Assembly: GCA_902762905.1 (NCBI GenBank)
Contig: CACWQE010000004.1
Coordinates: forward strand, 1 to 64,000
Direction of reading: 5' to 3'
DNA: 64,000 nt
Source of the DNA: an uncultured Lachnospiraceae bacterium
Lineage (GTDB): Bacteria; Bacillota; Clostridia; Lachnospirales; Lachnospiraceae
Shown here piece after piece: positions 1,386 to 28,301 of this stretch. The notes beneath the pieces are model-generated. The model had not been told where the DNA came from. It did no database searches and saw nothing but the letters and a program-made list of their open reading frames with translations. Each line of letters begins with the position of its first letter. Within the stretch, counting starts at the first letter, position 1. Position numbers and translations under genes: made by a program.

Positions 1386-1913
1386 TCACTTACAGATGAG
1401 CCGTTCCTTCACCTCTTTCAACCGATATTTGCTGATCGGTATCTCTTTCCCATTATCCATAAATGCTGTCCGGTGTTTGACCCGTATGACGTGGCTGCTG
1501 TTGACCAGATAACTTCGATGAACTTTTACGAATCCCTCGTTTTCCAATATTCCCTGCACTTGTGAAATACTGATTGATAACAGAAATTCTCCTTCTTTTG
1601 TCACCAGCCGGATCTTGCTGAGATCTGCTTCCACATAATAGATATCATTCACAAAAAACGTGCCAATCTCTTTGCCAACCGATAACGTCACTTTCTTGCG
1701 ATTCGGATTGTTTAACATATATTGTTCAAATTTATCTAGTGCCGTCTCCTCCATAAAAATCATCTGAAAATCCTTCAGATTCTCCTTTAGCAGCTTCTCG
1801 TCCTGACAGCAAATAATCTCTACTGTATCGTCTACTGCAACGATATTCTTATACAGCCGTTGTTTGTGTTTTTGTAGTTTGTCCCCGTCTGTTCCATACA
1901 GCGCAATTCTCAT
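1386..1913 (-). CDS. LytTR-domain DNA-binding regulator
   Basis: A protein of 175 residues. The C-terminal half (about residues 75-175) is a LytTR domain, visible as FFVNDIYYVEADLSKIRLVT, the HRSYLVN motif and the final ISKYRLKEVKERL. The N-terminal part resembles a receiver fold in length and pattern but lacks the usual Asp-Met-Pro phosphorylation site, having MIFMEETALDKF there, so it may not be phosphorylated. A longer TTG start at 1946 is excluded because that position lies in the -10 box of the gene's own promoter; ATG 1913 has AAGGAG upstream. It probably regulates nearby genes such as the kinase operon, by inference from position only. Confidence 0.85.
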   Translation of the reverse strand: MRIALYGTDGDKLQKHKQRLYKNIVAVDDTVEIICCQDEKLLKENLKDFQMIFMEETALDKFEQYMLNNPNRKKVTLSVGKEIGTFFVNDIYYVEADLSKIRLVTKEGEFLLSISISQVQGILENEGFVKVHRSYLVNSSHVIRVKHRTAFMDNGKEIPISKYRLKEVKERLICK

Positions 1914-1945
1914 CTTTCGAATCTCCTTAATCCCACTTATTACCA

Positions 1946-1974
1946 ATGATAGTAAAATGATTTTTCGTTTTCAA
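1946..1974 (-). promoter_or_regulatory. Sigma-A type promoter of the LytTR gene
   Basis: On the minus strand TTGAAA (1969-1974) and TATCAT (1946-1951) are separated by 17 bases. Predicted transcription start is about 1939, giving a short leader with AAGGAG before ATG 1913. Confidence 0.6.
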
Positions 1975-2115: not shown

Positions 2116-2161
2116 ACAAAAAGAACCCTGTTAGTTGTTTTCTAACTAACAAGGTCCTTCT
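2116..2161 (-). terminator. Intrinsic terminator of the kinase/FHA operon
   Basis: Stem arms AAGAACCCTGTTAGTT (2121-2136) and AACTAACAAGGTCCTT (2144-2159) pair with few mismatches around a 7-base loop. A run of T follows on the minus strand, just past the last gene of the operon. Confidence 0.8.
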
Positions 2162-2170
2162 TCATTTTCT

Positions 2171-2716
2171 TTATATCCAACAAAATTTTTCTCCGCAAAT
2201 TGGCACGAATAGAAATTGCACATCTAACACAGATATTCTTTCATAACCAGACAACGACACGCTCTTTTGTAACAGCATATCTCCTACCCTTATCTGCCCT
2301 TCCTCGGGATGGATCATAAATTCATTACTTTCCGGATAATACACAATCGCCGTAAGTAATGATGCTTTCTGCCGTCTTTCATCACCAACATGAATACCAT
2401 CCTCACATCGTTCCACATAATTCCTTCCATAATATAACGGAAATACGTTTCCTCTCTGCACTCCACCGACTGACACCAATATTCCAACCGGTAAATGTGT
2501 TTTTTCCCTATTCTTAAGCTGCTCCATTGCTGCAATGACCGCCTTTTGAAGAGACTCCGGTTCATTATCAAAGCATTTCTTTTTTGTGTAATTTTCCTCC
2601 ACACCATCTAACTGTACGGTATCCTTTAATGTTTGTCCCTTAACTGCACAATACGGACATCTTACAAATTTATCCTGATCGTAATAATGTCCCTTTTCGC
2701 ATTTTTGTAGATTCAT
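2171..2716 (-). CDS. Zinc-ribbon protein with degenerate FHA-like domain
   Basis: A protein of 181 residues. The N-terminus has a zinc-binding pattern, CEKGHYYDQDKFVRCPYC (residues 6-23). After a linker, residues 75-181 resemble the FHA-like domain of Clostridial proteins that start with this zinc motif: YYGRNYVE, a strand-rich centre and the tail LFVPICGEKFCW. The usual phosphothreonine-binding residues (SxxH, NG) are not visible, so phosphopeptide binding is uncertain. The start at 2716 has AGGAG ten bases upstream, and the gene lies 14 bases after the LytTR-FHA gene, last in the operon. It is probably a substrate or adaptor of the kinase encoded upstream. Confidence 0.75.
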   Translation of the reverse strand: MNLQKCEKGHYYDQDKFVRCPYCAVKGQTLKDTVQLDGVEENYTKKKCFDNEPESLQKAVIAAMEQLKNREKTHLPVGILVSVGGVQRGNVFPLYYGRNYVERCEDGIHVGDERRQKASLLTAIVYYPESNEFMIHPEEGQIRVGDMLLQKSVSLSGYERISVLDVQFLFVPICGEKFCWI

Positions 2717-2730
2717 CCCATTTGCTCCTA

Positions 2731-3429
2731 TTATCCAACTTCAAATATCTCATTTGTGTCTGCCAACCGCAATCGATCCCCTGTTTGAGCCTCCCGCATC
2801 ATATCCCTTTCTTCCAACCGGACATCATTGACATAGATACCGTTGACCGAACGGTTACAGATATAATAACGATCCACTTTATCATTATACTGTATCCAAC
2901 AATGTTCTCTACTGATTTCTGGCTCATCAAGTACTACATCTGCCTGATCATATCCCCTTCCTAATATCAATTTCTCATTTGGATATATCCAGAACTCTGC
3001 CCCCTGATATTTACCACTGACACATCGTACTCTCCCTTTGGCAACACCATTCTCTTCTAATATCATCTGTATTTTGTTACGATTGTTTCCCAATAGACCT
3101 TGTTGCCTCATTTTCACATAACAGGTTCTGCTAACCGGGATTTGCTTTCCACCAATCCATACCCACTCCCGACTGATTCGATCAATCTTCTTTCGGTTTA
3201 CAAGAAATGACTTATGGCACCGCAAAAAAGCCTCCCCCAATATCTGCTGTACTTCATCTAGTTTTCCATAAAATCGATATACATTTTCATCCTTAAGATG
3301 CACTTCCACAATACGCACATCACTTGAGAAAAACATTACCTCTTCCAATAGAATTCTTTGCAAGCCATGCTGTGTATGAATTTCCATATATTCATATTGT
3401 TGTCCCTTTTTATAAAAGTTGCAATCCAA
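2731..3429 (-). CDS. LytTR-FHA fusion protein
   Basis: A protein of 232 residues with two domains. Residues about 15-115 are a LytTR DNA-binding domain (VMFFSSDVRIVEVHL, FLRCHKSFLVNRKKI, IPVSRTCYVKMRQ). Residues about 130-232 are a canonical FHA domain with LILGRG, the SREHC phosphothreonine contact and NRSVNGIYVN. This predicts a DNA-binding protein that reads phosphothreonine directly. The start is not certain. TTG at 3429 has GGAG nine bases upstream and overlaps the end of the preceding FHA gene by 20 bases; ATG at 3387 is the alternative and keeps both domains. No receiver domain is present, so signalling probably comes from the Ser/Thr kinase of the same operon. Confidence 0.85.
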   Translation of the reverse strand: MDCNFYKKGQQYEYMEIHTQHGLQRILLEEVMFFSSDVRIVEVHLKDENVYRFYGKLDEVQQILGEAFLRCHKSFLVNRKKIDRISREWVWIGGKQIPVSRTCYVKMRQQGLLGNNRNKIQMILEENGVAKGRVRCVSGKYQGAEFWIYPNEKLILGRGYDQADVVLDEPEISREHCWIQYNDKVDRYYICNRSVNGIYVNDVRLEERDMMREAQTGDRLRLADTNEIFEVG

Positions 3430-3736
3430 TACCCTGTTCTCCTATTCTGACCACATTACCCGGCTTTATATCCGTTGCCTGTTTGTACTTTAACCGTAGT
3501 CCACCCTGTAGAAATGTTCCATTTTTCGAGTAATCTGTTACGATATAATGTTTCCCTCGTTCATCATAACAGATACTACAATGTTTCTTACTGATCCACG
3601 AAGCTTCTAACACCAGATTACAACTTCCTGTATCACGTCCAATATTTAATATCTCTCCTTTTTGAAGAACTAATATCTGATCCTCATACTTGCCATTTTG
3701 TATACGAATTGCCCCGTATGTATACGTTCTACTCAT
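3410..3736 (-). CDS. Single FHA-domain protein
   Basis: A protein of 108 residues that is essentially one FHA domain. It shows LNIGRDTGSCNLVL, the SKKHC motif and DYSKNGTFL, the residues that bind phosphothreonine in this family. No membrane segment or signal peptide is visible, so it should be cytoplasmic. Its ATG overlaps the stop of the surface-protein gene (TAATG), implying translational coupling. It is likely an adaptor that recognises a phosphorylated partner made by the kinase of this operon; the partner is unknown. Confidence 0.85.
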   Translation of the reverse strand: MSRTYTYGAIRIQNGKYEDQILVLQKGEILNIGRDTGSCNLVLEASWISKKHCSICYDERGKHYIVTDYSKNGTFLQGGLRLKYKQATDIKPGNVVRIGEQGIGLQLL

Positions 3737-6228
3737 TACGACTTCCCTCTCTTGCTATAGGCACTACGATACACCTTGTTCTTTTGTTTCTTACAGGCAA
3801 TAATCTTATAAGAATACTCTTTATCCGGCTGTGCCTTCTTATCTTCATAGTAACATTTCTTTACCTTGGCAATCTTCTTGAAACTTCCCTTTTGACTTAT
3901 CTTCCGGTACACTTCATAATAATCACAATTCTTTATCTTTTTCCACCGGATCACACGATTTCCGTTCGTCTTCTTAGTCACTTCTAGCTTCGGTGCTTTC
4001 GGAATGATTCGAAAATTCTTCACAACCATACCTGTATAGTTTCCCTTGAATGTATATTCAATGCTTGCTGTGCCAACCTTCTTATTATTCTGATATTCAC
4101 AGGTATAATCCTGTGGTTCCTTGGGATACACGTATATTATCTCCCCATTATACTGTGCAGCTAATCGGAATGCCGTTGTCGGGCAGATCGCTTTTCCTGA
4201 ATATTCTGCTGCATATATCTTTCCATCTTTTCCTTTCAACATACTCGAAAGCCCCGAAACATCATATGGTTTAATAACAAATGTGACAAGACGCACTCCG
4301 GTATAATCACCTATTCCCTGCACAGTAGCAGTTGCCGTCCCCGCATCTATATTATCACTATACGTTACGGTATAATCCTTGTCCTTCTCCAACTCCTTCT
4401 CTCCATGTATGATCACCATATCCGGTTCCATCGCTCTGTTGCAGTAGGTCAAATCTGGAATCGGTTGTATCGTTAAAGCCGTTATGTCGCATTTCCGTTT
4501 CATTTCATTTTGTATGATTTCAAATGGTATCTCTATCTGTCCTTCATAATTACCAATGCCTGTAACAACCACATATGCCTGTCCTACATTCCAGTTATCA
4601 CGCCCCTCTGCCATATAATCCCTTCCGGGTTGCAGTGTCACACCATTACAACAGACACTCACTTCCGGGGTTTTGGGAAATCCATCCCATATATATCGGG
4701 ACTGACTAAGCGACACTTCCGCTGCATCATCAATTACGCCCTTTTTTATCTCGTACGAGACTACAAAAGGCGTGTCCGATGTATACTTTCCATGCCCCAC
4801 ACTATATAGATTCACATAAATAATACCCGGTTGCACCGTATTCTCTACAATCGAATAATCATAATCCCGTCCCCGAACTAAAATCTGTTCTCCATCCCGG
4901 ATCATAACTTCCGGAATATGAGACTGACCATCGTAATAATAAGTATACTGCGACAATGTACATCCCAGTTCATATAAATCTTTTGTTTGAATCTCATATT
5001 TGTGTTTCTGCTCTCCGATATACCTTCCGATTCCTGTCACGCTGACCGTTGCAGTACCCTGTTCCGTATTGTTGGTATAACGAACCTCATAATCTTTACC
5101 ACACTCTAATACAACATCCTGATCTGTTACCGTTATCCCCGGCTCAATCGGCTCTCCCGTGCGCCAGTATTCGGTCTTTTCTAACTCTACCTGACACGAT
5201 GCAATATCACGGTACACAACATATGGTATCGTCTTCGTTCCCTGATAACACCCCATACCTGTAATCATCATTCGTCCCTCTGCCCCGTCCTCTTCATAAC
5301 TGATCGAATAATCGATTCCCTCATTTAATAAAACCTCATCTTCGCCAAATGCATATGCAAGCGTAACCTTTGGTTCGCTCTGTAAATTCTGATTCAAATT
5401 GGTTTTGCAATAAACATTTGCTATATCATATGTCTGAGTTGCATCTACATAGACTGCATAATTTTTCTGTGCCGTCTGCTTCATATAGTCATTCTTCCCA
5501 TATATTGCATTGATCAAATTCCACGGCAGACATGCCACATCTACCTGTTCTACAGACTCAGGAAAATATATAGTGCGTATTCGATATTCCCGCGTCGACG
5601 GACTCCGAAATACACTTCCCATCAGTCTTTTCGTTCCTTCATTAATCTGTACAACACTATACCATTCGCTTTCATCTAATACTCCCTCCAGCCATACCGC
5701 TCCATAATATGCATCGTCAAATATAGCATAAAACGAATCATCTTCTAATTCCTCAACCGTACCCGGTATATTAATCCTTCTAAGTGGACAATTCGAAAAT
5801 GCATCTCTTTCTATCCTTTGTAAGTGAACCGGAAATTGTATACTCGTCAAACGCATACACGACATAAATGCATTGCGACCAATTATCTGCAAACTCTCCG
5901 GAAGTTCGACCTCTCTCACATAGTGATGCCGATAAAACATACTATCTCCAATATATGTAATCCCTTCCCCCACCACAATCTTAGTGATATCGTCTATATA
6001 CGGATACCACGGCACTTTATATCCCTGCATATAGGAATAATCCCCCATTTTCCCCTCTCCTGTTATGGTCAGCACTCCATCTTCATACTGCCACATAACA
6101 CCTTCCTCGTTATCTGAAGTTCCGCAATATCCCGATGTTGGAATAGTTACCGCCATTGCTTTGTGTGGCACCAATAATATTCCCCAAGCTATAGCAATGA
6201 AAAAAATAAATATTCTCTTTTCTTTCAT
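3736..6228 (-). CDS. Large secreted protein with BspA-type LRR, Ig-like repeats and Fn3 end
   Basis: A protein of 830 residues with a signal peptide at 1-26 ending KAMA. Residues about 40-170 form BspA-type leucine-rich repeats (ITKIVVGEGITYIGDSMFY, LPESLQIIGRNAF). From about 280 to 740 follow several 80-residue repeats of the type DYTVTYSDNIDAGTATATV and GIGDYTG, typical of Lachnospiraceae surface proteins. The last 85 residues are fibronectin type III-like (EVYRKISQKGSFKKIA, YSYKIIACKKQKN). No LPXTG or membrane anchor is seen, so retention at the surface is unclear. Being between kinase genes and FHA genes, it may be the ligand, adhesin or sensed partner of the kinase system. Confidence 0.85.
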   Translation of the reverse strand: MKEKRIFIFFIAIAWGILLVPHKAMAVTIPTSGYCGTSDNEEGVMWQYEDGVLTITGEGKMGDYSYMQGYKVPWYPYIDDITKIVVGEGITYIGDSMFYRHHYVREVELPESLQIIGRNAFMSCMRLTSIQFPVHLQRIERDAFSNCPLRRINIPGTVEELEDDSFYAIFDDAYYGAVWLEGVLDESEWYSVVQINEGTKRLMGSVFRSPSTREYRIRTIYFPESVEQVDVACLPWNLINAIYGKNDYMKQTAQKNYAVYVDATQTYDIANVYCKTNLNQNLQSEPKVTLAYAFGEDEVLLNEGIDYSISYEEDGAEGRMMITGMGCYQGTKTIPYVVYRDIASCQVELEKTEYWRTGEPIEPGITVTDQDVVLECGKDYEVRYTNNTEQGTATVSVTGIGRYIGEQKHKYEIQTKDLYELGCTLSQYTYYYDGQSHIPEVMIRDGEQILVRGRDYDYSIVENTVQPGIIYVNLYSVGHGKYTSDTPFVVSYEIKKGVIDDAAEVSLSQSRYIWDGFPKTPEVSVCCNGVTLQPGRDYMAEGRDNWNVGQAYVVVTGIGNYEGQIEIPFEIIQNEMKRKCDITALTIQPIPDLTYCNRAMEPDMVIIHGEKELEKDKDYTVTYSDNIDAGTATATVQGIGDYTGVRLVTFVIKPYDVSGLSSMLKGKDGKIYAAEYSGKAICPTTAFRLAAQYNGEIIYVYPKEPQDYTCEYQNNKKVGTASIEYTFKGNYTGMVVKNFRIIPKAPKLEVTKKTNGNRVIRWKKIKNCDYYEVYRKISQKGSFKKIAKVKKCYYEDKKAQPDKEYSYKIIACKKQKNKVYRSAYSKRGKS

Positions 6229-6240
6229 ACTCCATCACCT

Positions 6241-7254
6241 CTAATCCTCTATTACAATAACTTCCGTAGTTGCTTCCGTCTTTTTCTCATTTGAACTCTT
6301 TTTACTTTCTTTTGCTTGTTTTTTCTCTGTTGCCTTCTCTGTGGTACTGCTTTTTACCGCTTTCTGTGTTTTTCTTGTCGTCTTAACCGGCTTTTCCTCT
6401 TCTGTAGTTATTTCCTCTGTGGTCACTTCCGGTTGCTCTGCTACCCTCACAACAACCACCTGCCCAGACTGAATCTCCTCTCCACAAGAGATACTCTGCA
6501 TAACAATTTTGCCAACGGATACATTCTCTGTAATATAAGACTCTTTTTGAATCTGAAGTCCCAGTTTCTCCAATTCACCTTTTGCCTGCTCGTATTGTTC
6601 TCCTATTATATCTGGCATACTCTGGTACGTTATACCCTTTGCCGCAAAAAATGCATATGGCTTTCTCCACATAAATAGCGCATACACCATTACTATAGCC
6701 AAAACAGTTAGTTCCACACCAAATACGGTTCTGCCAATATATTTTCCTTTTTTATACTTTTCTGCCGTCCGGTAAAGCATTCTGGTTGCTACATCCTTGC
6801 GCCGATAATTCTCCGAATACTCCGTGATCACATACACCGTTCCATTCTGTTCAAAATAATCATAGATCCGAATGATTCCGGTCTCTTCCCGAAATCTTGC
6901 CAATTCCTTGGCATCGGATATGTATTGTTCTTTTCCTTTCCGGTATTCATTCTCGGCATCCGGTTCTTGCAGGCACACCTGTCTTTGTCCTTCGTCCCGC
7001 GTCAATATTAACTGCGGATAATATTCCTTTATTGCTATCCGCTTATCCAGCACCTGATCCCAGCCAAGGTATATGATCTCCTCTTTTCCGCACCGCAGAA
7101 CAGTTCCTACTATATATCGTGCCTGCAATACAGTCTGCGGCTGCAAAGCAAACGCATATTCCTGCTTTGCATTTATTGTATATCCGCAATACGGACAACA
7201 TTTTTTCTTTTCCTCATATTCCCGCATGCATCCCATGCATCGCAACTTTGCCAT
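6241..7254 (-). CDS. N-lobe-only pseudokinase with transmembrane segment and PASTA domain
   Basis: A protein of 337 residues. It starts with a zinc ribbon (C6, C9, C20, C23). Residues 45-150 align with the N-lobe of the neighbouring kinase (RIAIKEYYP, TRDEG, IIRIYDYFEQNGTVYVITEY) and keep the ATP-site lysine, but the glycine loop is degenerate. The whole C-lobe (HRD, DFG, APE) is absent, so it cannot phosphorylate. A membrane helix (about 176-195) follows, then one PASTA domain (MPDIIGEQYEQAKGELEKLG, residues 213-272) and a Thr/Lys/Glu-rich outer tail. Ribosome site AGGAGG overlaps the stop of the kinase gene. It may hold or modulate the active kinase at the wall; PASTA domains bind peptidoglycan fragments in related kinases. 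Confidence 0.85.
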   Translation of the reverse strand: MAKLRCMGCMREYEEKKKCCPYCGYTINAKQEYAFALQPQTVLQARYIVGTVLRCGKEEIIYLGWDQVLDKRIAIKEYYPQLILTRDEGQRQVCLQEPDAENEYRKGKEQYISDAKELARFREETGIIRIYDYFEQNGTVYVITEYSENYRRKDVATRMLYRTAEKYKKGKYIGRTVFGVELTVLAIVMVYALFMWRKPYAFFAAKGITYQSMPDIIGEQYEQAKGELEKLGLQIQKESYITENVSVGKIVMQSISCGEEIQSGQVVVVRVAEQPEVTTEEITTEEEKPVKTTRKTQKAVKSSTTEKATEKKQAKESKKSSNEKKTEATTEVIVIED

Positions 7255-7264
7255 CTGTTTCCTC

Positions 7265-9091
7265 CTAACGATATCCGTCTAACTGCTGTTCTAATATCGT
7301 TAATTTCTTACGGATATTCTTACGATCTTCCCCGTCCACTCTGCAATTCACGCTTAACATTCTCTCATCCTGTGAAGCCATCATCTGCTGTCCACCATAC
7401 GACAATAGATACTCTATATATAACTCTGCCATCTTTTTTTGCAAATGAGTATGATCCGCATTCACACTCAATGTCCGATACGTAACGGCTGTATTCTCCA
7501 ACGGATAGACACGTATAATTCCAAGCAAATTCTTTTCCTTTGGCACATATGTCTCATATGCATTGATAATATCCTCATAATCGGAAGCGAAACCTGTCAA
7601 ATACGGAATCTGGCCGGTCAAAAACAGTTGTAACTGTTCATCTGAACCATCATATACATATGTATCCTGCGCTTCACTTGCCCCATTCCGCGCTTCGTTT
7701 TCGTTCACTCCCTGCAAAATATACTTCACCTGTACATCAAATCCGATCGGCATTTGCTTTCTCTTAGGAAAATAGGTCTGATATCTCGAAAGAAAATAGT
7801 AACTATCCGATCTGTCCATTCTCGCTGCACAGTCTCCAAGTTCCTCACTATACGCATACACCTCATCTGCCAGTCCGGTGCTTTCAAAAACATCCGGTGC
7901 CTGTTCCGTCCCTAATGCCTGTAATAAATGTTCCTTGTAACTCTCTTCCTTTTCTACATGAACGTTCACCTTCATGTCAGGGTATTCTTCTGCCGCCCAT
8001 TTTCCGCTCATCCGGTTATAATACGCTTCCATCTGATTCACATCTGTATCTTCTGTTGCGCAGATCCAGACATTAAGTGTTCCTCTTGGTGTAGAAAACC
8101 GCTGGCATAAGACCATACCAAACAGAATCAGACCTAACATTCCTGCCAGAATCCCTGTCTTTGCATACTTTCTGCGTTGCAACTGCTTTTCCTTCTTCGT
8201 CTTGGGAACAGCAACCACCTTACACTTTCTCAATGCATCTGCCATCTCCCTGGCACTTGCAAATCTATCTTTTGGCTTCAACGCCATGGCTTTACGTATA
8301 ATATGATCCATATATGCCGGAATCTCTTCATCCCACTCACACGGGCTTACTAACAGATCTTCCTGTACCCGTTCTGTTGCCTCTAACGGAACGCATCCGG
8401 TTACCGCACAGTAACAGGTTGCTCCTAATGCATAGATGTCGGTCCATGGTCCCTGATCAGAATCCGTCTGATACTGCTCCGGTGGTGCATATCCCGGTTT
8501 GACAATTACCTCCCGACAGCTGTCATCATCCACAGACAAACGACTTGCCCCAAAATCAATTAATTTGATCTTACCATCACTACACAAAAAGATATTATCC
8601 GGGCTGACATCCCGATGAATGATCCCTGCAGCATGCAATGTCTCCAATGCCCCCGCAATCGCTAACGCAATCTCTTTGGCATATAGGACTGACATTTTGC
8701 CCTCATTTACCTTCAGAAAATACTTCATGGAGATTCCATCCAAGTACTCCATAACAATATATCCGGTTCCATTCTCCTTAAAGAAATGAAAGACATCCAC
8801 AATATTCGGATGTTTCGAAAACTTTGCAAGATTCCGCGCTTCCTCTAAGAATCGATGTAGTCCAAGCTGGAATTCTTCTTCCTTGCCCGCACTCTGGTAG
8901 CGAATCTGTGCATCACCCTCATCCCGTTTCACAAGACCGATCGGATAAAACTCCTTAATTGCCACTATAATATTTAGTTTTGTATCAAATGCTTTATAGG
9001 TGATTCCAAAACCACCTTTTCCTAAAACCACATCAATCACGTACCGATCTGCCAACATGGTTCCCGGAGTTAAATGATAACATCCTTTCAT
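7265..9091 (-). CDS. Transmembrane Ser/Thr kinase with solute-binding-protein-like outer domain
   Basis: A protein of 608 residues, started at ATG 9091 with GGGG upstream. Residues 15-290 are a complete Hanks-type kinase: GKGGFG loop (24-29), lysine 46, HRDVSPDN (159-166), DFG (179-181) and APPE (202-205). One membrane helix is at about 309-329. Residues 336-608 lie outside the cell and resemble family 1 extracellular solute-binding proteins: GTLNVWICATED, a YKEHLLQALGTEQAPDVFE segment and later QMPIGFDVQVKY. PASTA repeats, the usual outer part of such kinases, are absent here and are found on the neighbouring half-kinase instead. First gene of the operon. No PP2C phosphatase gene is nearby. 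The ligand is unknown; sugar or peptide binding is only inference. Confidence 0.9.
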   Translation of the reverse strand: MKGCYHLTPGTMLADRYVIDVVLGKGGFGITYKAFDTKLNIIVAIKEFYPIGLVKRDEGDAQIRYQSAGKEEEFQLGLHRFLEEARNLAKFSKHPNIVDVFHFFKENGTGYIVMEYLDGISMKYFLKVNEGKMSVLYAKEIALAIAGALETLHAAGIIHRDVSPDNIFLCSDGKIKLIDFGASRLSVDDDSCREVIVKPGYAPPEQYQTDSDQGPWTDIYALGATCYCAVTGCVPLEATERVQEDLLVSPCEWDEEIPAYMDHIIRKAMALKPKDRFASAREMADALRKCKVVAVPKTKKEKQLQRRKYAKTGILAGMLGLILFGMVLCQRFSTPRGTLNVWICATEDTDVNQMEAYYNRMSGKWAAEEYPDMKVNVHVEKEESYKEHLLQALGTEQAPDVFESTGLADEVYAYSEELGDCAARMDRSDSYYFLSRYQTYFPKRKQMPIGFDVQVKYILQGVNENEARNGASEAQDTYVYDGSDEQLQLFLTGQIPYLTGFASDYEDIINAYETYVPKEKNLLGIIRVYPLENTAVTYRTLSVNADHTHLQKKMAELYIEYLLSYGGQQMMASQDERMLSVNCRVDGEDRKNIRKKLTILEQQLDGYR

Positions 9092-9144: not shown

Positions 9145-9173
9145 ATCATAATACACATTTTCAAAGATGACAA
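9145..9173 (-). promoter_or_regulatory. Promoter of the kinase/FHA operon
   Basis: TTGTCA (9168-9173) and TATGAT (9145-9150) on the minus strand are 17 bases apart. They lie 54 bases upstream of the kinase ATG. Confidence 0.65.
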
Positions 9174-9316: not shown

Positions 9317-9664
9317 TTATTGATCCAGTGATTGAATGACTTTCTCCACATCCTCCACTTCCATATCCAGTTCTGCCGCAATCTGTTGTACAGAATAATT
9401 TAGTTTTTGATAATAAACTCTGATTGCTCCTTCCATTCTACCTTCTATCCGACCTTCCCGTCTGCTGACTTCCTTCATCTCTCTCACTGCCTGACACATA
9501 TCGATCACCTCTTCTTCCTCTAATTCACGCTCCGACAAATCCAATGTACAGAATTCATTCAACACCGCCGCTGCCCTTACCGGCATATTTGATAATACTT
9601 CTTCATGTGTATCCACATACTTCTGAAAATTCTCCATCGAAGATGCATACTTTAATAAACCCAT
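9317..9664 (-). pseudogene. C-terminal fragment of an Rpn-family nuclease/transposase
   Basis: The 115 residues match only the C-terminal end of the family: a helical region, then ELEEEEVIDMCQAVREMKE, a Arg/Glu-Gly linker RREGRIEGRMEGAIRVYYQ and a short helix-turn-helix-like end IAAELDMEVEDVEKVI. The nuclease part is missing. Only 39 bases separate its first ATG from the stop of the upstream permease gene, and no convincing ribosome site is present. It is best read as a 5-prime-truncated remnant, possibly left by recombination. It is not the missing end of the left-edge copy, because the order of the two pieces is wrong for a simple insertion. Confidence 0.65.
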
Positions 9665-9703: not shown

Positions 9704-10939
9704 CTAATTCCTCCGCAGTGCCTCAATCGGACTTAACTTCGCTGCCTTTCTTGCCGGATACACACCGAACAGTATTCCGACAACCGAAGAAAATGCTGAC
9801 GCAAGCAGTACGGTTCCCAGGCTAAGTGCCGGAGCAAAATGCATATTCGGAACGATCATTCCGATGATACCGGCAATGATCCATGCACCTGCCACACCGA
9901 GCAGAATACCGATAAGACCACCGATCAACGTAATAAATGCCGACTCTGCAAGGAACTGTACCGTGATAGATCCGGTCTTCGCACCAAGTGCCTTACGGAT
10001 ACCGATCTCTCTTGTCCGTTCGGTTACCGATACCAACATAATATTCATAACACCGATACCACCAACTAATAACGAAACGGATGCAACAAACGCAACGAAC
10101 ACCGTGATCAAGTTAATAACCTGATTCACCGTTGCCATGATGTCATCAAAACTTTGATAGTTGTAGATTTCCTGTCCTTTTGCATGATGCTTCACTTCAA
10201 GGTAATCAATCACCTCTTTGCAGACCGTTTCTGCATCCGCATCACCATCCTTCAGTGCATAGAAATCCGTGATCTCATTAGACAGATCGATTCCGGTACA
10301 CATCGAAACCGCCATCGGCGGGAGGATCAACTGCACCGAAGGATCTTCATACATTGATGTGATTGCATTCTTCTCTTCTGACTTAGTCACACCAATGATC
10401 GTAACCGTCATCTCTGCCTCATCCCATACTGTTAGGTCAAGATCCATGCCAACCACATTCGTTGATCCAAACATTTTCATGGCATCATCCTCACTAATGA
10501 CGCAAACCGGTTTTCCTGCCTGTGCCTCGCTGTCCGTATATGCCGTACCCTTTACAAAAGTGTTCTCATTAAAAGTAAATGCTGATGCATCTGCGGCGAT
10601 CATATGGACTACAAAGTCATCCTTTTTCGTATGGGTAGTACCTTCTAATATGATCTGTGATGTTACTGCTTTGATCCCATCCATCTTCGCAATCGCATCC
10701 ATATCTTCTTCCGTAATATAGTATTTATCCTGATAGTCCGTAATATAGAATGCAATCTGTCCCTTGCCAATACTTCCTAACTGCTCCGATATCATACCTG
10801 TAGCACCATTACCAATCGAAATGATCAGGATAACGGAAGAGATACCGATAATGATACCTAACATGGTAAGGAATGTACGCACTTTATTGGCCCAGATATT
10901 CTTAAGGGCCATCTTCACATATTCACCAAGTTGTCCCAT
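9704..10939 (-). CDS. MacB-type ABC transporter permease (FtsX family)
   Basis: A protein of 411 residues with the FtsX/MacB permease layout. An N-terminal helix (TFLTMLGIIIGISSVILII) is followed by a roughly 230-residue outer domain and three C-terminal helices containing the family signature EIGIRKALGAKTGSI. Such permeases work with a membrane-fusion-like adaptor and a separate ATPase, both encoded immediately upstream. The complex probably exports peptides, antibiotics or lipids, or acts as a mechanotransmitter; the substrate cannot be read from sequence. The gene starts 10 bases after the adaptor gene. Confidence 0.9.
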   Translation of the reverse strand: MGQLGEYVKMALKNIWANKVRTFLTMLGIIIGISSVILIISIGNGATGMISEQLGSIGKGQIAFYITDYQDKYYITEEDMDAIAKMDGIKAVTSQIILEGTTHTKKDDFVVHMIAADASAFTFNENTFVKGTAYTDSEAQAGKPVCVISEDDAMKMFGSTNVVGMDLDLTVWDEAEMTVTIIGVTKSEEKNAITSMYEDPSVQLILPPMAVSMCTGIDLSNEITDFYALKDGDADAETVCKEVIDYLEVKHHAKGQEIYNYQSFDDIMATVNQVINLITVFVAFVASVSLLVGGIGVMNIMLVSVTERTREIGIRKALGAKTGSITVQFLAESAFITLIGGLIGILLGVAGAWIIAGIIGMIVPNMHFAPALSLGTVLLASAFSSVVGILFGVYPARKAAKLSPIEALRRN

Positions 10940-10949
10940 AACCGGCCTC

Positions 10950-12497
10950 CTATTCTGTTATCGTTACCACGCCTGGTGCTGCCACTGCCGCCGTCTCAGG
11001 CACATACTCATCCCCTGGTTTCATGTCCTTGGTCACATTACGGATCACCTTATCACCCTTCTCAATACCGGTCTTCACTTCATAATATTCATCCGAATAG
11101 ATACCAACTTCCACATCTTTTCTCTGAATCTTATTGTCCTTATCCACAACATATACATAATCACCATCAATGTCCGTGCAAAGAGCTTCATATGGAATCA
11201 CCAATGCATTATCTGCTTTACCCACAAAGATATATGCCTTTGCAGACACACCAATATAAATGTTGTCATCCGGGTTCTCAATTCGGATACGTCCCTTAAT
11301 ACTTCCGCCTGTTGTCTTCGTTGTAGTAGTCGCTGCATCCATACTTGCCACACGGCTTACAAATTCAACCGTTCCGGTATATTCATTATTACCGATCACG
11401 ACTCTTGCTTTCTGCCCGTCGGATATGTAACCAAGGTCATCCTTTGCAATCGTGAACTCGACTCCAACCTCATTCGCATCAATGATCGTAAATAACGTCT
11501 GTGTCTCGTTGGCATATGCACCTTTCACCACTTCTACTGACTGTACAATCCCATCCGCATCCGCTGTAATACCTGCCTCGGCTGCATTTAAGTCTTCCTG
11601 TGCATCACTGATATTCAGATTCGACAACTCATTCGACGCTGCCAACTGCTCTTTCGTACTCTTAGAGACTTTCACATCCTTATTTGCAGATACAATGGAT
11701 TCCTGTTCTGCTAACTTAGATTGTTTTTCTGTAATCGCTTCATTCTTCTTTGTTAACTGCTTGTTAAGATCCCGGATCGTCTGCCGGATTCCCTTTGTAT
11801 CCTGTAGCTTCGGTTCCCTCGTAGTTCCCTGATCATTCGGAGTTGCCGCTTTCTCTGTCTCCTTCGCATTCTGACTTTCAATGTCTTCCATCTGATCCTG
11901 ATATGCTGTAATGCTGTCATTGATTGCCTCTGCTTCTTTCTTCATCGTAGCAATCTCTTTTTCCATCTTCTTCACTTTCTTCTTGGCTGCACTGGTCTTA
12001 TCCGCAGCCTCATCTGCCGTCTCGTAATTGGCATCTCCGGCAGCCTTATCGGAGCGTGCCTGAATCTTAACTTTGGCTAAATTATCTCCCAGATCGGATG
12101 CATCATATGTAAGAAGAACGTCTCCCTTCTTAACCGTCTGTCCTACCTCGACACACACATCCTCTACTTTTGCAGTAACAGGTGATGTGTATGCATTCTG
12201 ACTGATGCCAACCACGGTACCAGATGTTGTGATCTCCTGCTCCACATCCTGCTGATCTACGGTATACAACGACTCATCATCACTGCTTACCGACCCCATT
12301 GCCTCCTTCACCTGCTTCATTGACTTTACAACCGATATAATTCCGCATCCCACGATGATCACCGCTGCAAGTACGATTACAATAATTGCCTTCTTGTTGC
12401 TTTTCTTCTTTGCTTTCTTAGTCTTATCCGGCTGTATGGTATCATCCCCAGCCGTTGTCTCTTGTGCTATCACTTCGCTATTCCTATTCTCTTCCAT
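10950..12497 (-). CDS. HlyD/MacA-type adaptor subunit of ABC exporter
   Basis: A protein of 515 residues. I chose ATG 12497 (MEENRNSEVIAQ) because AGGAGG lies just upstream; a longer in-frame start at 12542 lacks a site. One membrane anchor is at about residues 37-55 (AIIVIVLAAVIIVGCGII). Then come a lipoyl-like half (SPVTAKVEDVCVEVGQTVKK), a long Lys/Glu-rich coiled coil (about 135-290), the second lipoyl half (ADADGIVQSVEVVKGAYANE) and beta-barrel domains. In Gram-positives such adaptors dock on the MacB-like permease and guide substrate through the wall. Confidence 0.9.
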   Translation of the reverse strand: MEENRNSEVIAQETTAGDDTIQPDKTKKAKKKSNKKAIIVIVLAAVIIVGCGIISVVKSMKQVKEAMGSVSSDDESLYTVDQQDVEQEITTSGTVVGISQNAYTSPVTAKVEDVCVEVGQTVKKGDVLLTYDASDLGDNLAKVKIQARSDKAAGDANYETADEAADKTSAAKKKVKKMEKEIATMKKEAEAINDSITAYQDQMEDIESQNAKETEKAATPNDQGTTREPKLQDTKGIRQTIRDLNKQLTKKNEAITEKQSKLAEQESIVSANKDVKVSKSTKEQLAASNELSNLNISDAQEDLNAAEAGITADADGIVQSVEVVKGAYANETQTLFTIIDANEVGVEFTIAKDDLGYISDGQKARVVIGNNEYTGTVEFVSRVASMDAATTTTKTTGGSIKGRIRIENPDDNIYIGVSAKAYIFVGKADNALVIPYEALCTDIDGDYVYVVDKDNKIQRKDVEVGIYSDEYYEVKTGIEKGDKVIRNVTKDMKPGDEYVPETAAVAAPGVVTITE

Positions 12498-12572
12498 ACT
12501 TTCCTCCTTCTGATTCCTGTTTTCAATCCATGTGAAACTCACATAAATATCTGTTAGTGAGCTGCCATTCTG

Positions 12573-13259
12573 CTAATCCCTGCAGAAATCCTCTACAATC
12601 TTCCCATCCATAATCCGTACCACACGCCGTGCATTAGCTGCAATTCCATCATCATGTGTGATCAGTACAATTGTATTTCCCTGCTCATTCAATCCATCTA
12701 ATATATTCATAATATCCTGTGTGGACTTCGAGTCCAGATTACCGGTTGGCTCATCCGCTAAGATAAGTGGTGGTGCGGCCGCAATTGCTCTTGCAATCGC
12801 CACTCTTTGCTGCTGACCTCCCGACATCTCAGATGGCTTATGCCTCATTCTCTCTCCGAGACCTACCTTCTCTAATGCCTCTTCTGCTAACTTTCTTCTT
12901 GTATTCTTATCCACCTTACGGTAAATAAGCGGAAGTTCCACATTCTCAACCGCAGTTAAATTCGGAATCAGATTAAATCCCTGAAAGATAAATCCAATCT
13001 CATCATTGCGCACCTCAGACAACTCATTGTCCGAAAGACTCGACACATCCCGTCCATTCAATATGTAAGTTCCACTTGTCGGAACATCCAGACACCCCAG
13101 CATATTCATCAAAGTGGATTTGCCCGAACCGGAATGACCAATGATCGCTACGAATTCGCCCTTCTGTACGGAAAGACTGACACCATCTAAGGCGTGTACT
13201 TCATTCTCTCCAGGATTGTATATCTTATACAAATCCCTGACATCAATTAAAGCGTCCAT
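12573..13259 (-). CDS. MacB-type ABC transporter ATP-binding protein
   Basis: A protein of 228 residues with all ABC ATPase motifs: Walker A GHSGSGKST, signature [14 protein letters not shown], Walker [13 protein letters not shown] and the H-loop ITHDD. Length and sequence fit the LolD/MacB/YknY family that energises FtsX-type permeases. It is first in a three-gene operon with the adaptor and permease downstream. The site AAGGGG precedes the ATG. Confidence 0.93.
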   Translation of the reverse strand: MDALIDVRDLYKIYNPGENEVHALDGVSLSVQKGEFVAIIGHSGSGKSTLMNMLGCLDVPTSGTYILNGRDVSSLSDNELSEVRNDEIGFIFQGFNLIPNLTAVENVELPLIYRKVDKNTRRKLAEEALEKVGLGERMRHKPSEMSGGQQQRVAIARAIAAAPPLILADEPTGNLDSKSTQDIMNILDGLNEQGNTIVLITHDDGIAANARRVVRIMDGKIVEDFCRD

Positions 13260-26231: not shown

Positions 26232-27557
26232 TTACAACGGTCTTATATAATGCAATGCATCAAACGGAAATACAATCGCAACACTATACACATCCTGCTC
26301 ATGTTTTACTCTCATAATTCCGTTATATGCTCTTACCGACTTTTTCACATTATCAAGACCATATCCGTGAATAAAATCGATTTCGTCTAAATTCTGTACC
26401 ACCTTATCATCCGGTCCGGGTACATAGGTATTTGCAATGTATATGGCAAATGCATTGTTTTCCACCTGTTGTATCTTAAGCACGATCTTGGGATCAAGCT
26501 GTCCCTGACAGGCATTCAAAGCATTATCTAACAGATTCCCTAATATGATCGCCAAATGATAATCACTAACCGGAACCCGTTGTGCCTCCACCTTCAGACT
26601 CGCAGTCAATTGAATTCCCTTAGATCTGGTCTGTAACATAAAATTGCTCACAAGTGCATCAATTGCCAGACATCCTGTATTCACTGTTGCATATCTTGAT
26701 TCCAGATCTGCCATTGCTTCCTGTGTATATGCCGTGATCACATCATATTCTTTCCTTTTCACACATTCATTAATACAGTTAAAATGTTTCTTCGTATCGT
26801 GCACGAAACTCCGGATATCCCGATAGGCTTCGCCTAATTGATCATAACGCTGTTTCTGTCTTAGCAGCTGATCATCTAACATTTGATTCTTTTGTTCCAG
26901 CTCTTCTGCCTTTAACACATTCCCAAGCAATACATAATTCACCACATTGATTACAAAAAGAAAAAGCATCAGCGTGATATAAAATTGAGGATTGCTAACG
27001 ATCATTTCAGAGCAGGGTGGCATAAGAAACAAAACACACGATAATAAAGGAATTATTATTAGCAGCAACGAATACATCTTAGAATGCACTCTTTCCTTTC
27101 TCTTCCACACTGCTCGAAACAGCAAAACAGCTACTAACAAAATCAATCCCTTCACATAACTTATCGCAACAAATGACCAGTCAGGCAGACGATCCATCTG
27201 ATCTTTTACTCCGGTAATATGGCTTACCAGATAATATGAACCATCTTCAAAAACAAAACTAATTATCATAATACTTACTACTGCAAAGACTCTCTCTTGT
27301 AGTTTCAGCCTATAAAAATATGTTAATACAAAATATGTCACTATTGACAACAACGACCTTAGGTAAAATGCGCCCTGCGAAGTATTACCCAGCAAAAAAT
27401 GTGTCATTATTTCATAAGCAATCTCTGTAACAATGCACCCCGTTATAACCCATACGGAGCTTACATCCTGTCTCCGCTTATCATACAGTGTCTGATAATA
27501 TATATACATTACTACTGCATCCAACACCCCTGTTATATAATCTAATATTGTCAACAT
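26232..27557 (-). CDS. agrC: AgrC-like sensor histidine kinase
   Basis: A protein of 441 residues. The N-terminal half has six to seven membrane segments as in AgrC peptide receptors. The C-terminal half is a GHKL kinase with the phospho-accepting histidine in SFVHDTKKHF, N-box NLLDNALNAC and G-box GYGLDNVKKSV. It should sense the cyclic peptide made from AgrD. It is last in the agrB-agrA-agrC order on the minus strand. Confidence 0.88.
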   Translation of the reverse strand: MLTILDYITGVLDAVVMYIYYQTLYDKRRQDVSSVWVITGCIVTEIAYEIMTHFLLGNTSQGAFYLRSLLSIVTYFVLTYFYRLKLQERVFAVVSIMIISFVFEDGSYYLVSHITGVKDQMDRLPDWSFVAISYVKGLILLVAVLLFRAVWKRKERVHSKMYSLLLIIIPLLSCVLFLMPPCSEMIVSNPQFYITLMLFLFVINVVNYVLLGNVLKAEELEQKNQMLDDQLLRQKQRYDQLGEAYRDIRSFVHDTKKHFNCINECVKRKEYDVITAYTQEAMADLESRYATVNTGCLAIDALVSNFMLQTRSKGIQLTASLKVEAQRVPVSDYHLAIILGNLLDNALNACQGQLDPKIVLKIQQVENNAFAIYIANTYVPGPDDKVVQNLDEIDFIHGYGLDNVKKSVRAYNGIMRVKHEQDVYSVAIVFPFDALHYIRPL

Positions 27558-27569
27558 ACATCCGTTCTC

Positions 27570-28301
27570 CTAATTCATCACAACCATCGTTTTCTCAAGG
27601 AATAGATCCTGTACCATCTTCACTCTTCTTCTGCTGATCGGAATTGTCATCCCATCCACCAGCCGTAGCCCCAACCGTTCCACTGCCACAACGTATTTCA
27701 GATTCACCAGATATCCCCTGCACGGAGAGATAAATGCATATGACTGCAAATTTGCCTCCCACTGTTGAATTGTTCCCTCCCCAGTTATTGTTTCATTTTG
27801 CAGTACATATTGTAAGATCGGCTTCTTATCTTTCAATGTCTTCATATATACAATATCTCTAACCTGGATTACCCGCTTCTCTCCATCTGTTTCAACAATC
27901 ACTTTTGTAATACGGGAATGTTCATATCGATGCACAATATCCCGAAACAATTTCTCCATCTGTTCATATTGTATTGGCTTAACTAGAAACTGAAATGGCT
28001 GAACGTCAAAACTATCCTGCATATATTTCGGATAAGAAGTAACAAACACAATAATAATGTCATCCTGCACATCTTCCCGTAACTTCTTTGCCACCTCTAA
28101 ACCATCTATCTCCGGCATCTCAACATCCAATAACGCAATATGATATGGATTCTTTTGATTGCTTTGCAGCAATTCCTTTCCATTCGTAAATGATTCGATC
28201 TCAAATTCTATATCTTTTTGCATCTGGTACCGTTCCATATATTGCTGCAATACCCGGATTACACTCTCTTCATCATCGCAGATTCCAACCCGTAGTTTCA
28301 T
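27570..28301 (-). CDS. agrA: AgrA-like LytTR response regulator
   Basis: A protein of 243 residues with an N-terminal receiver (VGICDDEESV, phospho-Asp in ALLDVEMPEIDG, Lys in FLVKPIQYEQ) and a C-terminal LytTR DNA-binding domain (SPCRGYLVNLKYV, PISRRRVKMVQ). The ATG overlaps the agrB stop (TATGA). It likely controls the agrB and agrD promoters and the plus-strand secretion operon. Confidence 0.92.
   Translation of the reverse strand: MKLRVGICDDEESVIRVLQQYMERYQMQKDIEFEIESFTNGKELLQSNQKNPYHIALLDVEMPEIDGLEVAKKLREDVQDDIIIVFVTSYPKYMQDSFDVQPFQFLVKPIQYEQMEKLFRDIVHRYEHSRITKVIVETDGEKRVIQVRDIVYMKTLKDKKPILQYVLQNETITGEGTIQQWEANLQSYAFISPCRGYLVNLKYVVAVERLGLRLVDGMTIPISRRRVKMVQDLFLEKTMVVMN

Follow-up and report, generated by a model that had tools for sequence, protein, structure and literature searches.

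Bacteria are known to pass signals from membrane Ser/Thr kinases to transcription factors that carry an FHA domain, to fuse such kinases to solute-binding proteins (SBPs), and to have kinases and FHA proteins at type VII secretion system (T7SS) loci. In the PknH-EmbR system of Mycobacterium tuberculosis, a membrane Ser/Thr kinase acts via a transcription factor that carries an FHA domain at its C-terminus, and the binding residues of this domain are needed (PMC4601284; PMC9239209). PknB, MviN and FhaA of the same organism unite an active kinase, a transmembrane pseudokinase and an FHA protein; in the dimer of the pseudokinase domain most contacts are made by the N-lobe, and the phosphorylated pseudokinase tail recruits the FHA domain (PMC12599244). 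A Ser/Thr kinase of Streptomyces coelicolor is fused to an extracellular solute-binding domain (PMC1262709), and the T7SSc-T7SSj variants bring together a membrane kinase, FHA proteins and an Ig-like envelope protein in one cluster, the clusters of types c, d, e and j containing kinases, PPM phosphatases and FHA proteins (PMC11217815). Here we describe an operon in a 64-kb stretch of DNA (the window) at the left end of contig C4 in the 2.9-Mb genome of an uncultured Lachnospiraceae bacterium. It encodes a membrane kinase with a solute-binding ectodomain, a half-kinase with a PASTA domain, a surface protein, a small FHA protein, a LytTR-FHA regulator and an adaptor that combines a zinc ribbon with an FHA fold (ZnFHA). 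In a working model that has good support and that we consider fairly probable, these form a trans-envelope phosphothreonine signalling module running from the surface to DNA. The operon thereby hints at a way, little known so far, in which the cell surface could control genes with no histidine kinase involved. Labels starting with G, C and L denote genomes (G000 is the source genome), contigs and genomic stretches, respectively; statements on the source genome rest on searches and on selected stretches of G000.

All six genes lie on the minus strand, from 9091 to 2171, with intact reading frames separated by gaps of at most 14 bp or joined by short overlaps. Together with the strong terminator described below, this agrees with the single operon proposed in an earlier note made from the letters of this DNA. 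That note had also named co-occurrence in related genomes as the test of its proposal, and the genes do stay together. The relatives are uncultured Lachnospiraceae, many of them sampled from the rumen or elsewhere in the gut in deer, goat and rabbit. In G398, a metagenome-assembled genome (MAG) from roe-deer rumen (RGIG5049; stretch L097, on the same contig as L137), the order is identical: kinase-SBP, zinc-ribbon half-kinase with transmembrane segment and PASTA, surface protein, FHA protein, a LytTR-FHA protein with receiver (REC-LytTR-FHA), and ZnFHA. Identities to the window proteins are, in that order, 48, 41, 51 (for the C-terminal part alone), 47, 45 and 34%. The core trio of LytTR-FHA, ZnFHA and kinase is present at dozens of loci in the genus. 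Our LytTR-FHA data set comprises 42 loci from 19 genomes; apart from G326, these genomes belong to the genus. Among the matches listed for 392 sampled genomes of the order, G326 was the only clear match for both domains outside the genus. At 33 of the 42 loci a kinase gene lies within 8 kb, always on the same strand; ZnFHA genes accompany 32 of the loci, and LRR/Ig surface genes 31. Distance matrices of LytTR-FHA, kinase and ZnFHA correlate with r of 0.84–0.87; when partners were shuffled within genomes, which controls for species history, the maximum was 0.72 and none of 2000 shuffles reached the observed values. As judged from these distances, this shows that the three are inherited as a unit.

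The kinase (Pfam Pkinase, 9.8e-40) has intact VAIK (with the catalytic Lys), HRD and DFG motifs. Its cytosolic kinase domain is followed by a transmembrane segment (about residues 312–330) and an extracellular C-terminal domain, which a profile of 11 relatives, searched against the PDB (best 7v09, E 3e-12), identifies as a sugar-type SBP (SBP_bac_1/8); Pfam SBP_bac_8 was matched in 8 of these 11 relatives. The assignment rests on the profiles, since an AlphaFold2 model of the domain from three sequences reached a predicted local distance difference test (pLDDT) score of 41. The transmembrane Ser/Thr sensor kinase of the earlier note is thus real, with a type of sensor domain that the note had missed. 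Kinase-SBP fusions occur in more than 10 other Lachnospiraceae genomes, usually beside genes for PP2C, FHA or ZnFHA proteins and a second, zinc-ribbon kinase with PASTA. Identity as a PrkC/Stk1 PASTA kinase was rejected, as the NF033483 scores of the kinase (179.6 bits) and the half-kinase (44.1 bits) fall short of the curated cut-off of 450. A defence-system reading was rejected as well: only generic kinase-domain matches (PD-T4-6, mad6) were found, and the other operon genes had no match. A single protein of 1230 aa in the same genus (L254:6662-10354; G412:C75) joins a zinc-ribbon start, an intact Ser/Thr kinase, a transmembrane segment and a BspA-type LRR ectodomain. From its domain content it would be a bacterial LRR receptor kinase, and this fusion in one protein is counted in favour of a signalling module.

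The half-kinase opens with a zinc ribbon and contains the N-lobe of a kinase only: the partial Pkinase match (residues 89–163) stops at the hinge and the entire C-lobe is gone. A transmembrane segment (about residues 177–195), one PASTA domain (1.2e-10) and a Thr-rich tail follow, in line with the catalytically dead half-kinase with PASTA proposed before. The truncation is shared by the L097/L137 ortholog, with 49% identity in the N-lobe. The protein is what is left, an N-lobe alone, of a pseudokinase partner. In the SBP-kinases every catalytic residue is preserved, while their partner kinases are repeatedly dead, with HRN (L123, L128, L131), HYH (L193) or HGQ (L234) at the HRD position, up to loss of the whole C-lobe in the window and L097. 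Because the partner is intact in L229, L231 and L232, its inactivity is frequent and not universal. In L233 (3034-11942; G653:C78), a kinase-SBP gene is followed by two degenerate zinc-ribbon kinases with HGR and HRA for HRD, another case of an active kinase with pseudokinases. By analogy, an N-lobe-only half-kinase would retain an MviN-type dimerisation surface.

The regulator combines LytTR (1.1e-16) and FHA (4.1e-14) domains by Pfam, has no receiver domain, and may start at TTG 3429 (232 aa) or ATG 3387 (218 aa). Among 51 distinct LytTR-FHA proteins, the residues with which the FHA domain binds are almost invariant (Gly in 51, Arg in 50, Ser in 48, His in 48, Asn in 49). They are under strong constraint, which supports the phosphothreonine pathway proposed in the earlier note. 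The 108-aa FHA protein (Pfam FHA, 7.1e-15) likewise has an intact phosphothreonine motif (GR / SxxH / NG). For the 181-aa protein no Pfam match was obtained; a family alignment makes it a member of a zinc-ribbon-plus-FHA family, and its AlphaFold2 model (pLDDT 75.6), for which Foldseek returned the FHA domains of GarA and EmbR, both among the top matches, and of MDC1 (E about 1e-5 to 1e-4, probability 1.00), predicts an FHA fold. The two FHA-type proteins of the note therefore both have the fold, but the 181-aa one has lost the phosphothreonine-binding residues (GR / SxxH / N), in the window as well as in L097; most paralogs have kept them. The ZnFHA linker has a conserved Thr: of 18 module proteins, 15 have [VILA][DEPLN]T there (shuffled mean 4.8, maximum 11). 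Among ZnFHA proteins of larger clusters, 12 of 21 have a linker with [KR]T[VI], in many cases directly preceding the FHA domain (shuffled mean 1.1, maximum 5). These counts are suggestive only, since the motifs were picked after viewing the alignment. The window and L097 proteins share linker Thr33 in xTVx[LM]. Such a threonine resembles the phospho-switch threonines that precede the FHA domains of GarA and OdhI. Very large clusters of zinc-ribbon kinases, kinase-FHA, VWA-FHA-TM (TM, transmembrane segment), FHA-TM, ZnFHA and PP2C proteins, with REC-LytTR and FHA, were seen in L098, L125, L129, L136, L246 and L252 (G414, G392, G411).

The surface protein has a signal peptide, BspA-type LRRs (LRR_5, 5.6e-19), repeated Ig-like segments, detected with a profile built from the protein itself, and a conserved C-terminal part, so that the 830-aa LRR/Ig-like secreted protein was correctly recognised. 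Only the C-terminal 237 residues align with the L097 ortholog (51% identity), which indicates that the outer part has been exchanged and the base retained.

While gene set, operon, domain content, conservation, co-inheritance and fusion history are read from the sequences, we infer the following route from ligand or signal to target promoter, including the direction of regulation. Outside the cell, the kinase with its SBP domain and the half-kinase with its PASTA domain would detect a solute, the wall or surface, or both; the LRR/Ig surface protein may take part. In the cytosol, the active kinase would work in a complex beside the half-kinase, of which the N-lobe could be an allosteric or docking partner; bacterial Hanks kinases dimerise via their N-lobes. 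The kinase would phosphorylate threonines, possibly of the FHA or LytTR proteins; the disordered ZnFHA linker offers a good candidate in its conserved Thr (Thr33 here). The phosphothreonine would be the ligand of the intact FHA domains in the 108-aa protein and in LytTR-FHA, and its binding would shift the DNA-binding state of the latter, which most likely controls its own operon and hence the surface protein.

Several observations weigh against this phosphothreonine route. The full six-gene set is known from two species only, and block duplication can yield co-inheritance of genes without physical partnership of their products. Conserved threonines are absent from the activation loop of the window kinase and its L097 ortholog, and the juxtamembrane Thr residues of the half-kinase are not conserved. 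Thr33 is a candidate for the residue read by the FHA domains, and the window ZnFHA, like that of L097, has only this motif and lacks [VI]DT, the more common form. Neither in the window nor in L097 did the region upstream of the operon show an AgrA-like pair of LytTR repeats. Finally, most fused paralogs keep the receiver Asp, so histidine kinases may still provide input to those paralogs.

The origin of the regulator can be traced to some extent. In L193, from another Lachnospiraceae MAG, an unfused version of the module is found: REC-LytTR, FHA, kinase-SBP, a zinc-ribbon pseudokinase with four PASTA domains (HYH for HRD) and ZnFHA, the start of the FHA gene overlapping the stop of the preceding REC-LytTR gene. 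Including L193, nine loci have an unfused REC-LytTR gene followed by a small FHA gene. A LytTR tree contains an 18-row clade (11 fused, 7 unfused; support 93/90) that holds the window and L097 proteins and seven of the nine unfused loci; the tree has few columns and weak inner forks, and L193 and L165 fall outside this clade. The grouping of the window and L097 LytTR domains with REC-LytTR proteins that have small FHA neighbours fits a fusion of adjacent genes. In a wider scenario, to which we give somewhat less than an even chance, AgrA-type LytTR regulators were rewired from histidine-kinase to Ser/Thr-kinase control by fusion to the neighbouring FHA gene and by receiver loss. This would have given multi-copy modules running from surface-sensing kinase via phosphothreonine adaptor to LytTR-FHA, each controlling its own BspA-type surface proteins, with pseudokinases or the half-kinase as co-receptors.

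The multiplicity of modules is evident in the source genome, which has six LytTR-FHA copies. Paralogous sets occur on C1 (L031), C8 (L030), C33 (L032), C53 (L033, decayed) and C11 (L027/L028), so that the gene set, recurring also in the genus, is not the one-off that it had seemed. The C53 module (L033:2901-4114) consists of a LytTR-FHA gene with a TAG inside the FHA match and a ZnFHA gene, without kinase. The C11 module (G000:C11:34000-59464) lies inside a T7SS locus with EssC-FHA, four WXG100 proteins, YukD, kinase-PASTA, PP2C, REC-LytTR-FHA, a zinc-ribbon protein, FHA, a solo LytTR and an LRR protein, and the T7SS there is apparently under control of the LytTR-FHA module; EssC-linked copies are also present in G415, G394 and G403. 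This suggests another explanation, namely that the main role of the FHA proteins and (pseudo)kinases is in forming or gating an assembly in the membrane, that LytTR-FHA is a feedback regulator sensing the assembly state and not the last step of a phosphothreonine relay, and that the operon is a T7SS regulatory set minus the secretion core. FHA and pseudokinase contacts exist in EssC-EssB of T7SS, and FHA proteins take part in type VI secretion systems. The kinases, phosphatases and FHA proteins of the T7SS variants cited above fit this explanation too, and the degenerate FHA fold of the window ZnFHA may be purely structural. However, EssC and WXG100 genes are absent from the window island and from most module loci, and the phosphothreonine residues of LytTR-FHA are conserved, unlike those of purely structural FHA domains. 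We therefore regard it as unlikely. Membership of the window operon itself in a T7SS was rejected, as no EssC/TsxC ATPase and, with our own single-sequence profile, no WXG100 match was found among the window open reading frames; kinase and FHA accessory parts are present.

Still less likely, LytTR-FHA and the solo LytTR protein encoded next to the operon are ordinary regulators, constitutive or fed by distant histidine kinases, with the FHA domain only aiding dimerisation or stability. The source genome encodes 13 AgrC-type kinases elsewhere, and 25 of the 42 fused proteins keep a receiver. Of these, 22 have the phosphoacceptor Asp and 3 have Glu in its place, whereas all 35 unfused REC-LytTR proteins in this data set have the Asp. 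The receiver is missing in the other 17 fused proteins, as it is in the window protein, for which identity as a two-component LytTR response regulator was rejected: it has neither receiver nor Asp, and no AgrC-type kinase adjoins it. AgrC-type kinases (HATPase_c_5) adjoin none of the islands, the nearest being at least 17 kb from the window operon, in a scan that did not extend to other histidine-kinase families genome-wide. This supports the earlier proposal of a pathway without histidine kinase. The window has a single AgrC-type kinase gene (26265-26564), which neighbours a REC-LytTR gene of its own (27570); the two make up an ordinary AgrC/AgrA-like pair (26265-28301) separate from the operon. 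At a distance of 2–4 kb from the C33 module there is a sensor-kinase/regulator pair of another type, and at least this module neighbourhood does include a histidine kinase. Strict conservation of the FHA binding residues and co-inheritance with a Ser/Thr kinase also argue against ordinary LytTR regulation and for the phosphothreonine module. That the island is degenerating, with half-kinase, receiver-less regulator and binding-dead ZnFHA as remnants of a decayed larger kinase/FHA/PP2C cluster that no longer work together, is very improbable: the parts are reduced as compared to larger clusters (L125, L129, L098) and the C53 module is decayed, but six intact frames in both the window and G398, with the same reductions after deep divergence (34–51%; half-kinase N-lobe 49%), indicate that the reduced forms have been retained.

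The borders of the operon are only partly as first described (Table 1). The terminator is convincing (z -5.8; none of 200 shuffles equally good). The candidate promoter is well positioned upstream of the kinase gene, but has no independent evidential weight, because such matches occur at chance frequency (26 observed, 27.4 in shuffled sequence). A PP2C gene, the absence of which had been pointed out, is indeed not found in the window; the genome has three elsewhere. Past the terminator, the solo LytTR gene forms its own transcription unit and encodes a truncated receiver-like N-terminus. Since 11 of 13 places with close relatives in the genus (E <= 1e-15) are in kinase/FHA/LytTR-FHA loci, this seventh gene probably belongs to the system. 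In L243 (6231-12417; G409:C39), where there is no LytTR-FHA, genes for an LRR surface protein and a kinase-PASTA lie upstream of a solo LytTR that is 75% identical to that of the window. Upstream of the operon lie a short gene (9317-9664) that resembles the C-terminus of Rpn-family nucleases (TIGR01784, below cut-off) and is probably a fragment, and, on the same strand, genes for a MacB-type permease, a membrane-fusion protein and an ABC ATPase (9704-13259), as recognised from reading the sequences and not from searches.

Table 1 Features of the six-gene operon and its borders in the window
Feature	Position	Strand	Evidence
Membrane Ser/Thr kinase-SBP, 608 aa	7265..9091	-	Pfam Pkinase, catalytic residues, SBP profiles, transmembrane segment
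Half-kinase with PASTA, 337 aa	6241..7254	-	PASTA and partial Pkinase; same truncation in L097/L137 ortholog
Secreted surface protein, 830 aa	3736..6228	-	LRR_5, repeat segments
Stand-alone FHA protein, 108 aa	3410..3736	-	Pfam FHA, intact motif
LytTR-FHA regulator, 232 aa	2731..3429	-	Pfam LytTR and FHA
Zinc-ribbon and FHA-fold adaptor (ZnFHA), 181 aa	2171..2716	-	Family alignment, AlphaFold2 and Foldseek
Intrinsic terminator of operon	2118..2162	-	19-bp stem, -23.5 kcal/mol
Possible sigma-70-type promoter (weak evidence)	9145..9173	-	TTGTCA-17-TATGAT, 10/12
Solo LytTR regulator, probable seventh member	1386..1946	-	LytTR 4.8e-20; locations of relatives

If the phosphothreonine module is real, it would be a bacterial case of an active kinase and a reduced pseudokinase acting as a receptor pair. 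The usual complement in Bacillota is one or two Hanks kinases, of which the targets are many and loose. A genome with several dedicated kinase-FHA-LytTR modules would seem to have a second set of pathways in parallel, one signal to one regulator, made from recycled two-component regulators. This would also give a testable account of how gut Lachnospiraceae select large BspA-type surface proteins, and in some loci a T7SS, for deployment.

The earlier note knew of no described system of this kind, which is too strong, as the same logic is found in EmbR, in MviN-FhaA and in the kinases and FHA proteins of T7SSd, T7SSe and T7SSj. A literature search for LytTR joined with FHA, with most subscription journals outside its coverage, found no paper, and the text of the T7SS-variant paper does not mention LytTR (PMC11217815). 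As compared to the T7SSc-T7SSj clusters, in a locus of which kind a sister module resides, the window operon lacks EssC, WXG100, YukD and PP2C. The S. coelicolor kinase has a Glu/Gln-type binding domain, whereas that of the window kinase is of the sugar type. MviN is two-lobed and acts on peptidoglycan synthesis; the window half-kinase has the N-lobe only and its output is probably at the DNA. With AgrA/LytTR response regulators the window protein shares the LytTR DNA-binding domain, and paralogs have kept the receiver, but it differs in having no receiver, no adjoining histidine kinase and an added FHA domain. With PknH-EmbR the operon shares an intact membrane Hanks-type kinase and a DNA-binding protein with an intact FHA domain, but not the architecture of EmbR, which is a SARP protein and has a DNA-binding domain of the OmpR type and a BTA domain. 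Instead, it has a LytTR-FHA protein of AgrA-type stock, accompanied in the operon by half-kinase, FHA adaptors and surface protein. By analogy, LytTR-FHA may work like EmbR, though it is not an EmbR.

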